A DNA stretch of 38,488 nt from Nitrospira sp. (GTDB lineage Bacteria > Nitrospirota > Nitrospiria > Nitrospirales > Nitrospiraceae). Below are positions 411-6,075 of the stretch, piece by piece. The notes below the pieces were generated by a model, which saw only the letters and a list, made by a program, of their open reading frames with translations, ran no database searches and had not been told where the DNA came from. A program made the translations under genes and the position numbers. The stretch lies in the NCBI GenBank assembly GCA_029240595.1, contig JARDZZ010000004.1, positions 1 to 38,488 of the forward strand, read 5' to 3'. Every line of letters starts with the position of its first letter. The first letter of the stretch is position 1.

Positions 411-3400
411 TTACACCGCCGAGAGATGTGCGATCGCCTTGTACACCGCCTCCGGGTCGCTCAACTGATTCCATCCCAATATCGCAGTCGAGTCTTCCAC
501 ATACTGACCAGTCCTCATGCCGTTGAGCACGCAGGTGACTCCAGGCGTGCTCGCAATCACCCACAAGGCTTTTCGTGATAGAGACTCCATTCGTTTTGAT
601 TCAGGAAGAAGCGGATCGATGGAGGCGGCTATCTGTTGCGTTCGGACGCGACTCCTCTCGGCCGCCGTTCGACGCAGCAATCCCAGGAGTGCGAGAAGTC
701 GTGGAACGTACCGGTCTCTCCAGCTTTCCCACTGCTGCTCGACAGACATCCCGCGAAGCAGCCGTGGAATCGCCTGCAAAACTTGGTTCACATGCGGCGC
801 GATCATCTGATGCTCGACCTGTTCCCAATGCTCCACTCCCTGCAAACGGGTGCGGAGAGGCGCTAACTCTTTGGCCCAATTAAAATAGTCCTTGGGCTCC
901 AGGCCTTTTCCGCCGTACGGAATGACCGCAGCGAGCGTCGACCGATACTCGTCTTCTAATACGTCGACCGCTCGGAATGCCTCCTCAAGGTTTCCTGATT
1001 CACCTTCCAGCGGACACTCCGCCAAGCGCACCATGCCCGCCCCTGCACCGGGCATGGCATTCAGGGGGCGATTCACCAGCACGGCGATCTGTTCTTGCTG
1101 GGCGAATTGCAGGACGCTCTGATCATGCTGAGGCCCCGTATTGGCCCGTGTGGCTACATCGCTCTCGAATAGGTTCATGGGACATTGCAAAACGGCAAAG
1201 TGATGCCGCGTCATTCCCACTGAGGCGGCCGCGCGCGCCGCTGCAGACAACACCTCAAACAAGGAGACGGCTTCAGGATCCTCCTTGTCACGACCGACCG
1301 TGTTTGAAGAAACGCCATACCATTGAATGCGGCCGGCCACCACTTGCGATTCGAAATAGGCGAATGCTTGTTGAATCCGCCGGTAGAAGCGCTCACGGGA
1401 CTCCAGCAGGCTCGCCGCGCCGCTTCGGGCTGCTTCCGAAAGAGCATACTCCGGATTGTGTAACAGGCAGACATCCACGGTCGCCAAGCCCAAACGGTCC
1501 AGCGAGCCATCGAGTTGGTCCGCGAGAAACTCCGGATGAATGCAATGCCAAATCCCGTCCCCATACTTGACCATGTCGGGGTAGGGGCGCCCCGTCCGTT
1601 CCCGCGCCTCTGCCTCCTTGAGATTCTGGCCCTGAACATAGCCGATTTTGGACACAACGATCATTTCGTCCCTTGATACGGCGCGCGTATGCACTATCTC
1701 GCGCAGAACCGTTCCAATCATGCGCTCGCTTCCGCCATCCATGTAGTTCGTAGAGGTGTCGATCACATTCACGCCGATTTCCAGCGCACGCATCAGCGCC
1801 CGTCGATGTTCAGGCTCGCTCTCGTCGACACGATACCCTCCGAAGCCCAGTCTCGAAGCGGTTAACCCGGTTGATCCGAATGCCGTATAGCCGTGTGCGA
1901 ACTGACCAGCTGTCCGAGGCTGATTCACCATTCTGGCGGCGTATCGTGCCGATCCTTCGACGGTGGCTGAACCACCGAGCATCCGGCCCCGTAGTTTCTT
2001 GCCGCCCGCGGTGGAAGCCGAGCGGGTAGAGAGGCGGGAAAGAACCTCGGCCGCCGACACGGGATCGGTCAGCGGCTGTTGGCAGGAAAAATCGCGGCAG
2101 ATGTACAGCGCAGTGCGGCCATCGACGGGCTTCTTTCCAGCAAGCAAGGGGTGTGAGGAGGCTCCATCAGTGCGATGACTGGTGGCCAGAATGCGGTTCG
2201 GCAGATACATGGTCCGTACGGTGTCGCGTAAGGCAGAAAACGCCGGATCGTCTTTGGCACCGATCAATGCCAGTTCGACCGGTCCTTCAGTCAGAAAATC
2301 AACCAATGACAAGCTCTTGGCAAATCCCCGCGGGTATCGGCTCATCTGCTTGCCATACGCACGCATGGCCGCAACGGCGGCCTCGCGAAACTCGGGACGG
2401 TCCAGGTGAAATGACAGACGGGCTAAGAACGTTGCGGCCACGGCATTGCCGCTCGGCGTCGCGCCATCAGCACCTTCACGTCCGCGCACAATCAGTGCCT
2501 CGTGATCCTTTGCCGTGGTGTAAAACCCTCCGAGCTCATGATCTTGAAACGACTCCAGAAGAGGCACCGCAAGCGCACCCGCCCTCTCGAGGAACCGTTC
2601 TTCGCCGCCGGCTTCATAGAGATCGACCAACCCTTCTCCCAAATACGCATAGTCTTCTAAGACGGCGTCGTGGTGTGCGCGGCCCTTTCGTGAGGTTCGA
2701 AGCAGGCGATTGTCCTTCGTGTAATGCATTCGAAGGAGATACTCGGTAGACCGTCGGGCTGCCTCGATGTACTCAGGTCGATCCAGCACACGTCCGGCTT
2801 CCGCCATGGCGGAGATCATCATGCCATTCCAGGCGGTGATGATCTTGTCGTCCAGACCAGGCGGCACCCGACGGGCGCGGGCCTCATAGAGTAGTGCTCG
2901 CCCGCGTCGCACAGAGTCCCGCAGTTCCTCGATCGGGACCTGTAACTCTTGTGCAATGACGTCGAGCGGCCGCATCCGATTGGGAATGTTCTTATGCTCC
3001 CAATTGCCTTGTTTCGTAATGTCGTACACCGCGCAGAAGCGCCGGCAGTCTTCTTCGTTGTCGAGGGCCTGTGCGACCTGCTCGGGCGTCCACACGAAGA
3101 ACTTGCCTTCCTCACCTTCCGAATCGGCATCGGTGGCGGAATAGAACGCTCCTTGGTCATTCGTCATTTCGCGAAGCACGTAATCGAGTACTTCCGTGAC
3201 CACCTGGCGGTAGGAGTCATTCCCGGTAACTTGGAACGCCTCGAGATAGGCTCTCCCCAGCAAAGCGTTGTCGTAGAGCATTTTCTCGAAATGAGGGACA
3301 AGCCAGCGTTCGTCGGTTGAATACCGTGCAAACCCGCCTCCAATGTGGTCGTAGATTCCTCCTGCAGCCATGGCGTCGAGGGTGGTCGTGACCATCTGCA

Positions 3401-4103
3401 GCGCCATAGGATTGCCGCTCCTGCGGTAGCATCGAAGCAGGAGAGAGAGTCCGGCAGCAGGCGGGAATTTGGGAGCACCCCCGAATCCACCGAAGCGTGC
3501 ATCAAATTCCTGCTTGAATTCGTCCACGGCCGCATCAAGAACTTCCTCACCGACGGAGATTGGAGCAGGGGTTTGCCACTCACGCTGTAATCGGGCGGTC
3601 ATGTCCTGAGCCTGAGATCGGACTCCGTTGGGATCTTGCTTCCAGACGTCCGCGATCTGTTGCAACAGATCCGGAAACCCTGGACGCCCCCACCGACCAG
3701 CGGGCGGAAAATAGGTTCCTGCAAAGAACGGCTGCTGTTCAGGAGTCAGGAAGACGGTCATCGGCCACCCACCCTGGCCGTGATTCATCGCGACCGTAGC
3801 AGCCATATAAATCTCATCGAGATCTGGTCGTTCCTCGCGATCGACTTTGATACAAACAAACCACCGATTCATCAACGCTGCGATCGCTTCGTTTTCAAAC
3901 GACTCACGTTCCATGACATGACACCAGTGACAAGCGGAATAACCGATGGACAATAGGATCGGACAATTCCTCTGCCGTGCGGTGTCAAACGCTTCCGGTC
4001 CCCAGGGGTACCAGTCAACCGGGTTATAGGCGTGTTGGAGGAGATAGGGACTCGTCTCGTGGACCAGGCGATTGGGCTTGCGTGGAGGTGTTGAAGTTGA
4101 CAT
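411..4103 (-). CDS. Fused DUF255 (YyaL/SSP411-type) thioredoxin-like protein and aldo/keto reductase
   Basis: A single uninterrupted 1230-residue frame carries two proteins normally encoded apart. Residues 1-170 are the DUF255 thioredoxin-like fold (opening [21 protein letters not shown]; redox motif C58-H-W-C61). About 190-690 is the six-hairpin, epimerase-like domain of the YyaL/SPATA20 family, whose exact reaction is unsettled. After a linker at roughly 690-730, residues 735-1230 form an aldo/keto reductase with all four family catalytic residues in order: D782 and Y787 ([12 protein letters not shown]), K819 (VVSKIGYV) and H882 (CLLHNPE). It also has a long helical C-terminal extension and a closing [11 protein letters not shown] segment. 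Met725 (codon at 1931) could start a stand-alone reductase, so a second internal start cannot be excluded. The ATG at 4103 lies 45 nt after the terminator of the upstream small gene, so it needs its own promoter. Soluble, no signal peptide. Confidence 0.88.
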
Positions 4104-4108
4104 AGGTC

Positions 4109-4138
4109 ACGGTAGCACCGGCTTCTGAAAGGGGTCAA
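4109..4138 (-). promoter_or_regulatory. Candidate promoter of the fusion gene
   Basis: Reading the minus strand, TTGACC (4138-4133) is followed after 18 nt by TACCGT (4114-4109), preceded by TGC as in an extended -10 element. The -10 is poor. If used, transcription would begin at about the start codon (4103), giving a leaderless or near-leaderless mRNA. The preceding terminator (4148-4183) means some promoter must lie in this short interval unless the gene lives on read-through. Confidence 0.35.
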
Positions 4139-4147
4139 TGCGCCCCC

Positions 4148-4183
4148 AAAAAAAAGGTCTATGGCCGTAAGACCATAGACCTT
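4148..4183 (-). terminator. Rho-independent terminator of the Lys/His-rich small gene
   Basis: A perfect 11-bp inverted repeat (4154-4164 with 4173-4183, AAGGTCTATGG type) surrounds an 8-nt loop. On the minus strand it is followed by eight consecutive T (complement of 4148-4155). It lies 45 nt downstream of the stop codon of the 75-residue minus-strand gene. Confidence 0.85.
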
Positions 4184-4227
4184 GGGGAATACTCGAGGCC
4201 CGACAAATGTGAAGGAGCCGTGGCGAC

Positions 4228-4455
4228 TTACTTGCCCTTCTTCTCGTCCTTCTTGTCTTCTTTCTTCTCTCCGAAGGTGTCCACGTGGCCACCCTTCTTC
4301 TCTTCTTTCTTGTCCTTGTTCTCATCGCCGTACACGAGAACGTGGCCGCCCTTCTTTTCGTCCTTCTTATCCTTCTTCTCCTCGCCGGCGAACGAAGGAG
4401 CGCTGAATGCAATCAACACCGCCACTGCCATAATAGTCATTAACGCGCGCTTCAT
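4228..4455 (-). CDS. Small secreted Lys/Glu/His-rich repeat protein
   Basis: A 75-residue protein. Residues 1-23 are a clean Sec signal peptide (MKRALM..., hydrophobic core, cleavage likely after PSFA-G or SFAG). The mature part is almost entirely charged. It holds two imperfect repeats of the form K-D/E-KK-D/E-EKKGGHV-x-x-Y/F-G-D/E and a third, shortened copy at the C-terminus. The GGHV histidines and acidic clusters could bind metal or polyanions, but no family is recognised. A purine-rich GGGGGG tract sits about 8 nt before the ATG. It has its own promoter-like sequence and a strong terminator, so it is a monocistronic gene and not a chance frame. Low complexity means its sequence evolves fast and searches may miss relatives. 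Confidence 0.8.
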   Translation of the reverse strand: MKRALMTIMAVAVLIAFSAPSFAGEEKKDKKDEKKGGHVLVYGDENKDKKEEKKGGHVDTFGEKKEDKKDEKKGK

Positions 4456-4509
4456 AGGTAGCCCCCCTTAGACTGTGCATTTGCCTGACCATCAGACAAA
4501 CGGGCGCAT

Positions 4510-4539
4510 ACCGTAGCCAATGAATCAGGGATTTGTCAA
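4510..4539 (-). promoter_or_regulatory. Candidate sigma70-type promoter of the Lys/His-rich gene
   Basis: Minus-strand TTGACA (4539-4534) is followed after 18 nt by TACGGT (4515-4510). The -35 is perfect and the -10 weak. The predicted start at about 4503 leaves a leader of about 47 nt. Confidence 0.45.
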
Positions 4540-4632
4540 TGACCACGAATTCCAAGGACCATTGCGTGCATCAATCGCCCGGTCGCGTCCTCTGTGATAA
4601 GGTTAAGAGACAGTATTTCGGCTCATCGTCCC

Positions 4633-6075
4633 ATGAATGACATCGGCCCGTACTCAAACTATCGCCTCACCGTTCGACTGGAACTCTCGAATAAACCGGG
4701 GATGTTTGCCAAGGTAGCCTCGGCTCTCGCCGAAGAAGGGGCCAACCTCGGCGCTGTGGATCTGGCGTCGGCAACCGCCGACCGGATGGTCAGGGACGTC
4801 ACCTTTGATGTCCGGGATGAAGCCCATGGCGAGCGGGTTCTGGCTAAATTGAATGCCATTCCAGACGTCACCGTGCTCTCGGCCTCGGATCGAATTTTTC
4901 TCCTCCACCTGGGAGGGAAGATCCAGGTGAAGAGCAAGCTGCCGCTGACTACACGTAACGTGCTGTCGATGGTTTATACGCCTGGCGTGGGCCGTGTCGC
5001 CCAAGCGATCGCCATCGATAAATCCAAAGCGTATGCCTTCACGACAAAGAGTAACACTGTGGCGGTGGTGACAGACGGATCAGCGGTGTTAGGCCTGGGG
5101 AATCTCGGACCGGAAGCGGCCCTTCCGGTCATGGAAGGCAAGGCGATGCTATTCAAGGAATTGGCCGGAATCGATGCCTGGCCTATTTGCCTGGCGACTC
5201 AAGATCCGGATGAGATTGTGCGCTCCGTCCAAGCGATTGCCCCCGGATTCGGGGCCATCAACCTCGAGGATATCAGCGCACCTCGCTGTTTTGAGATCGA
5301 ACGTCGACTCAAGGCGTCACTGGACATTCCGATCATGCATGACGACCAGCACGGGACCGCGGTGGTCCTGCTCGCCGCATTGACCAATGCCTTGACCGTA
5401 GTAGGTAAGCATATCGAAGAGGTTCGTGTCGTGGTCAATGGGCTTGGTGCCGCGGGCACTGCCTGCTGCCGGATCCTGCTCGCAGCCGGGGTGTCCCATC
5501 TCCTCGGCTGCGATAAGGAAGGGATCGTTCTGTACGGAGACGCCGCCCAACTGAGAGCCTGCCGAACCGATCTGACGGCATGCCTGACGCCCAACCGGCC
5601 ACGCGGCAGCTTGCGCGACGCATTACGCAATGCCGATGTATTCATCGGACTTTCCGTGGGCAACCTGTTGGACGCGGAGGACCTTGACCTGATGGCGGCG
5701 GATAGAATCGTCTTCGCTATGGCCAATCCCGACCCCGAAGTGCCCCCTCAACTGGCGCTTTCCCACTGCCGCATCTTCGCGACCGGCCGCTCGGATTTTC
5801 CCAACCAGATCAACAACGCGTTGGCATTCCCAGGTATTTTCCGTGGCGCGCTCGATGTGCAGGCCAGCGAGATCAACGAACTCATGAAACTTGCCGCAGC
5901 CCGGGCTTTAGCCGAAACGATTCCACGGGCCGCACTCAGCGATGACTACATCGTGCCCAGCCTGTTCGACAAAGATGTCGTTCCCCGGGTGGCGCGAGCA
6001 GTTGCCGCAGCTGCGCGTGAGAGTGGGACAGCACGTCGAAGATCGAAGCCTTCGGATGAACGGCCCCTGGCTTGA
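4633..6075 (+). CDS. ACT-domain malic enzyme (NAD(P)-dependent malate oxidoreductase, decarboxylating)
   Basis: Catalyses oxidative decarboxylation of malate to pyruvate, linking the C4 acids to pyruvate. From the ATG at 4633 the protein has 480 residues. The first ~80 are an ACT ligand-binding domain (YRLTVRLELSNKPGMFAKVA), which suggests allosteric control by a small molecule. Then comes the malic enzyme core with the catalytic Tyr motif MVYTPGVG, the Lys-bearing MEGKAMLFKELAGIDA, the metal-binding DDQHGTA, and the dinucleotide motif NGLGAAG. A GTG at 4594 would add 13 residues. Neither start has a good ribosome binding site, and ATG was chosen because the ACT domain begins soon after it. 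The fold fits the short bacterial class, with no phosphotransacetylase extension. Coenzyme preference cannot be read from sequence. It stands alone, divergent from the Lys/His-rich gene. Confidence 0.93.
   Translation: MNDIGPYSNYRLTVRLELSNKPGMFAKVASALAEEGANLGAVDLASATADRMVRDVTFDVRDEAHGERVLAKLNAIPDVTVLSASDRIFLLHLGGKIQVKSKLPLTTRNVLSMVYTPGVGRVAQAIAIDKSKAYAFTTKSNTVAVVTDGSAVLGLGNLGPEAALPVMEGKAMLFKELAGIDAWPICLATQDPDEIVRSVQAIAPGFGAINLEDISAPRCFEIERRLKASLDIPIMHDDQHGTAVVLLAALTNALTVVGKHIEEVRVVVNGLGAAGTACCRILLAAGVSHLLGCDKEGIVLYGDAAQLRACRTDLTACLTPNRPRGSLRDALRNADVFIGLSVGNLLDAEDLDLMAADRIVFAMANPDPEVPPQLALSHCRIFATGRSDFPNQINNALAFPGIFRGALDVQASEINELMKLAAARALAETIPRAALSDDYIVPSLFDKDVVPRVARAVAAAARESGTARRRSKPSDERPLA

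Follow-up and report, generated by a model that had tools for sequence, protein, structure and literature searches.

A lineage-restricted family of small, charged, predicted secreted proteins in Nitrospira, encoded at two loci with different promoter classes

The minus strand at positions 4228–4455 of the window, the 38,488-nucleotide stretch of Nitrospira DNA analysed here, carries a coding sequence for a precursor of 75 amino acids. The open reading frame starts with ATG at 4455 and closes with a TAA that ends at 4228 (stop codon 4228–4230); ORF calling, dN/dS values and the existence of relatives all support it. The precursor reads MKRALMTIMAVAVLIAFSAPSFA followed by a 52-residue tail. Its first 23 residues (4387–4455, minus strand), delimited from the translation, the alignment and the codon table, form a signal peptide that terminates in APSFA and is the best conserved part of the family alignment, above the mature part. 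This anatomy suggests Sec export with cleavage after residue 23 and a location in the periplasm or on the cell surface. Several signal-peptide codons are nearly fixed (Leu5 TTG in 84 of 90, Ser18 AGC in 92 of 98 and Phe17 TTC in 97 of 98), a pattern that could stem from codon bias or from a constraint at the RNA level.

The mature part (4231–4386) is a polyampholyte with 18 K, 9 E, 7 D, 8 G and 2 H among its 52 residues and a net charge of +2. It contains two repeats, GGHVLVYG (4327–4350), conserved in the alignment, and GGHVDTFG (4270–4293), conserved with substitutions. AlphaFold, run with a 19-sequence alignment, gives no confident fold (mean pLDDT 51.6, pTM 0.12), which is not proof of disorder. 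The first-pass annotation had described a small secreted protein here without giving the strand, and the gene, the signal peptide and both GGHV-x-x-(Y/F)G repeats are indeed present. It had also called the mature part nearly all Lys/Asp/Glu; it is rich in these residues, but they make up 65% of it, so that “nearly all” comes down to about two thirds. The truncated third repeat that it listed is merely a K/E tail ending in KKGK, and we regard it as weak.

The gene is framed by its own candidate expression signals, all on the minus strand. A Shine-Dalgarno sequence, AAGGGGGG, can be read at 4462–4469, just as the first pass had claimed. Further upstream lie a –35-like element TTGACA (4534–4539) and a –10-like element TACGGT (4510–4515). 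A strict sigma70 scan found no promoter, but the combination TTGACA-N18-TACGGT at 4539–4510 aligns with the equivalent elements of 13 other copies of its promoter class (class B, defined below). A stem search places a hairpin with an 11-pair stem and a TGG loop at 4478–4502, near the predicted 5' end of the mRNA. Behind the gene, at 4154–4183, the “textbook” terminator of the first pass is found as a 13-pair stem (4183–4154) followed by a T run, with a folding z-score of –4.4. Taken together, the promoter-like and terminator signals support the earlier suggestion that the gene is transcribed separately. The terminator separates it from the downstream neighbor (411–4103, minus strand), a large protein that we take to be YyaL/thioredoxin-domain-like. 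The divergent neighbor (4594–6075, plus strand) is presumably a malic-enzyme-like protein. Both were placed from the ORF list and synteny, and both are synteny markers of class B. No tRNA was found in the window, and an Rfam scan of 4000–4700 gave three matches, all far under the gathering score. A sigma54 site and the dyad enhancer described below are absent from the window copy.

The window's own genome holds a second copy, with 83% identity over the aligned part. Each of the seven genomes of the genus has a member, a single-sequence search finds relatives in 152 of 235 genomes of the order, and a profile search extends this to 159 of 235 genomes and 17 of 37 genera, commonly with two or more paralogues per genome. 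The absence of relatives with a conserved signal peptide and repeat, which the first pass had named as grounds for dropping its reading, is therefore not what was found. A scan of 84,980 species genomes gave 117 relatives, of which 80 were kept; all of these are titled Nitrospira, Nitrospirae/Nitrospirota, Nitrospiraceae or “Nitrosospira” (bins NOB2, CMX). Pfam and NCBIfam contain no family above cut-off for the window protein, in agreement with the first pass, to which no known family had come to mind, and scans of 19 members gave weak matches only. Four weak families are listed in the Pfam scan of these members, and ZraP is not among them. We rejected membership of ExtJ, DUF5052, PepSY_2, DUF6520, LPXTG and MxKDx, all of which are under cut-off or weak. 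A PDB search returned no relative (best E 0.8). The protein thus belongs to a lineage-restricted, multicopy family that is unnamed in Pfam and NCBIfam.

The family is under purifying selection, with dN/dS of 0.06–0.23 across nine pairs of relatives; a tenth pair was skipped, as one of its members had earlier been removed as a duplicate. A spurious or decaying reading frame could be suspected from the low-complexity composition and from broken copies elsewhere (stops in several members; L089), but the dN/dS values, the presence of members in every genome of the genus and the conservation of expression signals among family copies leave this with next to no probability. The reading frame is a genuine gene, and its product has a signal peptide. 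The disruption seen in a few copies elsewhere (L089, L072 and members with stops) could reflect either biological decay or assembly error.

Promoter architecture was compared among copies with at least 140 nt of upstream sequence; removal of duplicates identical in upstream region plus protein reduced 115 copies to 99, and loci were left out if their protein was unreadable (X) or lacked the SAP motif, or if they lay too close to the start of a contig. Eighty of the 99 copies, among them the second copy of the window's genome, form class A, with a sigma54-type –24/–12 element GGCA-N6-[TCA]TGC, for example CGGCACCAAGCTTGCT; it was sought 65–100 nt before the ATG and lies at a distance of 69–88 nt. 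Class B comprises 14 copies, including the window copy, with a sigma70-like TTGACN-N16-22-YANNN(T/A). Five copies fall in neither class; of these, L089 resembles a disrupted class B copy, and a class A element, though a weaker one, can be seen in L164. The classes follow gene order: the YyaL-like gene adjoins 13 of the 14 class B copies and no class A copy (0 of 80), and 9 of the 13 also have the malic-enzyme gene beside them, which is the arrangement of the window. NUDIX/gcvT/fabI genes adjoin 58 of the 80 class A copies (in one of the 58, fabI or NUDIX alone); the remaining 22 have no such neighbor within 4.5 kb or a flank too short to tell. Promoter class is thus tied to synteny, and the two classes correspond to two loci, A and B.

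Ten genomes or bins have both loci. Within these genomes A–B identity averages 0.88, compared to 0.79 for B–B and 0.80 for A–B between genomes, although the genome's own A copy is the single best match in only four of the ten. The excess of within-genome identity over the between-genome values hints at gene conversion between the two promoter contexts. In L065/L068, L082/L097 and L057/L079 the proteins from loci A and B of one bin are 94–99% identical, and class B copies differ more between these bins than A and B differ within one.

Class A promoters carry further conserved elements upstream. The motif YAANNNNTTGATW, which we take to be IHF-like, is present in 34 of 53 non-redundant sequences (80 before removal of near-identical ones), compared to a mean of 0.7 and a maximum of 4 in shuffled sequences. 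It lies at –41/–42 or –51/–52 from the –24 element, two spacings that are one helical turn apart. Farther upstream is a long dyad, TGAGGCRGTTTAG and CTATTCTGCCACAG separated by about 10 nt, whose halves are inverted repeats. Among class A copies 53 of 80 match the strict pattern, as does 1 of the 5 unclassified ones, whereas none of the 14 in class B does; by eye, many of the misses deviate at a base or two, and the dyad seems to be missing from L047. Whole genomes were searched with the strict pattern (22 genomes) or with up to three mismatches (23 genomes), 28 distinct genomes in all. The dyad is found in 20 of the 28, once in each, and the reversed-pattern control gave 0. A family gene lies within ~200 nt downstream in 18 of these 20 genomes, and in G124 and G166 the coordinates match a listed family member. 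This arrangement is that of an enhancer for a sigma54-polymerase activator, here apparently serving one gene. Scans for other sigma54-like sites used a pattern too loose to define a regulon: G000, G001 and G140 gave about as many matches as the reversed-pattern control, and G003, G062 and G166 gave more. Sigma54-like sites precede genes for exported proteins beside nxrAB in G003 (L186; 2314319 and 2324172) and in G062 (L182–L183; 4271285), and the family dyad pattern was not found at these sites.

A stem near the predicted 5' end of the mRNA is shared by the two classes. After removal of near-identical sequences (class A from 80 to 43, class B from 14 to 12), its start lies 12–17 nt downstream of the –12 element in 36 of 43 class A sequences; for class B the distance from the –10 element is 6–12 nt in 10 of 12 sequences. 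In a per-sequence stem search against mononucleotide shuffles, a simpler control than dinucleotide shuffles, the mean stem score is 14.7 compared to 10.9 for class A and 17.0 compared to 10.7 for class B, and none of 100 shuffled sets reached the observed mean in either class. The window hairpin folded alone is unexceptional (z –0.95), whereas the stems of each class as a whole do exceed their shuffles. In an RNAalifold consensus of the class A upstream alignment the 5' hairpin does not appear, since the alignment breaks its stem apart. Paired changes are seen in the stems ATGCCC/GGGCAT (the second copy of the window's genome), ACGCCGA/TCGGCGT (L033) and GTACCGA/TCGGTAC (L059). The palindromes could be operators instead of RNA hairpins; we favor the RNA reading because several stems contain G–T pairs. 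Hairpins at the 5' end can stabilize mRNA.

One genome in the collection, G062, is taken to be N. moscoviensis because its nxrA and bacterioferritin genes sit where the tags of that strain place them. It has three members: one at locus A, one at locus B in the synteny of the window, and a divergent third of 73 aa at 2324 kb (L168; C1 2324072–2324290), flanked by glycosyltransferase-20 and trehalose-phosphatase genes. Full-length relatives of L168 occur in G061, G098, G099, G127, G128 and others, and two further loci also have a trehalose-phosphatase neighbor. The third member lies 55 kb, or ~43 heuristically called genes, before the bacterioferritin gene expected to be NITMOv2_2541. Its own tag is estimated at ~2482–2498, between the 43-gene count and the genome-wide tag density. 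One of the top transcripts of N. moscoviensis may come from a family member, with NITMOv2_2496 as the candidate. This match is suggestive only: among other exported genes that could carry this tag, one of 131 aa at 2319942 fits less well, and two near 2337 kb fit about equally. Proteins of this family are probably expressed strongly and under tight regulation.

Our best guess at function, to which we give a probability of roughly 45%, is that the protein is an abundant, disordered, hydrophilin-like protectant of the periplasmic envelope, supplied by one constitutive and one inducible copy. Alternating K/E/D blocks would stay unfolded and soluble and provide hydrophilin-like, chaperone-like shielding of envelope proteins, and the GGH-x-x-x-(Y/F)G motifs would be short stickers that make contacts or touch metal. 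Such a protein would resemble ZraP in how it is regulated and a hydrophilin in its chemistry. The window copy, as a class B gene, would be the constitutive sigma70 supply, and the class A copy the inducible one, switched by a single putative dedicated enhancer-binding protein. The 5' hairpin of both classes probably shields the transcript and keeps it abundant. The idea of two supplies rests on the class A partner because the window copy has neither a sigma54 site nor the enhancer, and the protectant function is read from a composition that many unrelated proteins share.

The first-pass annotation is supported in part: its picture of a secreted, repeat-bearing, separately signaled and family-less product stands, its caution about function was justified, and the metal-binding, polyphosphate-binding and extracellular matrix roles that it named as possible are candidates only. 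The paralogue, the promoter classes, the enhancer and the restriction to one lineage were beyond its view. A periplasmic metal buffer would hold Cu or Zn at the GGH motifs, either to supply metalloenzymes or to protect them, perhaps after cleavage at the KK before the motif, which would expose an N-terminal Gly-Gly-His copper site. It would fit the finding that GGH is the commonest repeat form (H at 181 of 266 xG positions) and that the median copy has 2 His. However, the repeat His gives way to K (52 of 266), Y, Q, T or other residues, His is missing altogether from 3 of 98 mature sequences, Cys is absent, and by eye no metal-handling gene sits beside locus A or B. Since the repeat His is common but not fixed, the family does not call for a metal role based purely on His, and we consider a metal buffer unlikely. 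Slightly more unlikely is a factor tied to nitrite oxidoreductase (NXR), either a secreted partner of this periplasmic enzyme or a helper in its assembly, co-regulated via sigma54. In G062, G160 and G128 gene order is conserved and ~12 kb separates locus A from nxrBA, and the third member of G062 is located about where NITMOv2_2496 should fall. The intervening 12 kb, however, consists of ordinary housekeeping-type genes, the enhancer is found only ahead of the family gene, and the identity of NITMOv2_2496 is not proven, other exported genes nearby being possible. In addition, NxrA, identified through PDB 7b04, is present in 36 genomes of the sister family f4, possibly the marine lineage, and none of these is among the family-positive genomes. 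An obligate NXR role is unlikely on this ground, and we rejected a strict partnership. An extracellular matrix, polyphosphate or surface-charge element of Nitrospira microcolonies is the least probable of the three functions: the protein is predicted to be secreted, highly charged and repeat-bearing, with Tyr/Phe “sticker” motifs, but it is very small and shows no anchor or polymerization signal.

The envelope-protectant reading can be widened to the regulation as a whole. This would be a private sigma54 enhancer system, approximately one activator for one gene, whose product is a secreted, disordered envelope-protection polyampholyte, previously unnamed and among the most abundant that nitrite-oxidizing Nitrospira make, with inducible and constitutive copies kept uniform by gene conversion. 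The full combination is possible but rather doubtful. A large share of global nitrite oxidation is the work of Nitrospira, whose strongly expressed genes nevertheless include some that lack an assigned function. Here an unusually well conserved regulatory region accompanies a widespread family that Pfam and NCBIfam do not name, and the enhancer offers a direct handle by which the binding protein, then its signal and then the role of the peptide can be tested. Should the top-ranked unknown transcript of N. moscoviensis turn out to encode a family member, one of the major products of these bacteria would be identified.

Several known systems resemble parts of this picture. One is ExtJ (NF040942), a protein of selenite/tellurite reduction operons that shares the short precursor; 9 of 19 members give a weak full-length match (best E 6e-5), but the window protein reaches 20.8 bits, under the curated cut-off of 52.5, and no selenite/tellurite operon was seen by eye around loci A and B. 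The MxKDx pentapeptide repeat proteins (TIGR02953) match weakly in 2 of 19 members (best E 0.016) and have a different repeat. ZraP is described in PMC4987338 as a sigma54-dependent, zinc-dependent periplasmic chaperone of the ZraSR system. The small size and export of the protein, together with the sigma54-type promoter of class A genes (80 of 99 copies), recall ZraP, whereas the window copy has no sigma54 site; homology to ZraP is not detected, as no Pfam family is over cut-off, and by eye no zraSR-like neighbor is present at loci A and B. Hydrophilins are delimited in PMC7448490 by Gly above 6% and hydrophilicity above 1. The window protein exceeds both values, with Gly at 8 of 52 mature residues (15%; 10.7% of the precursor) and a mean Kyte-Doolittle score of –2.35 for the mature part and –1.16 for the precursor. 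The lack of a confident AlphaFold fold may be a further likeness to hydrophilins and LEA-like proteins; the family differs from them in being exported and in having a repeat motif of its own.
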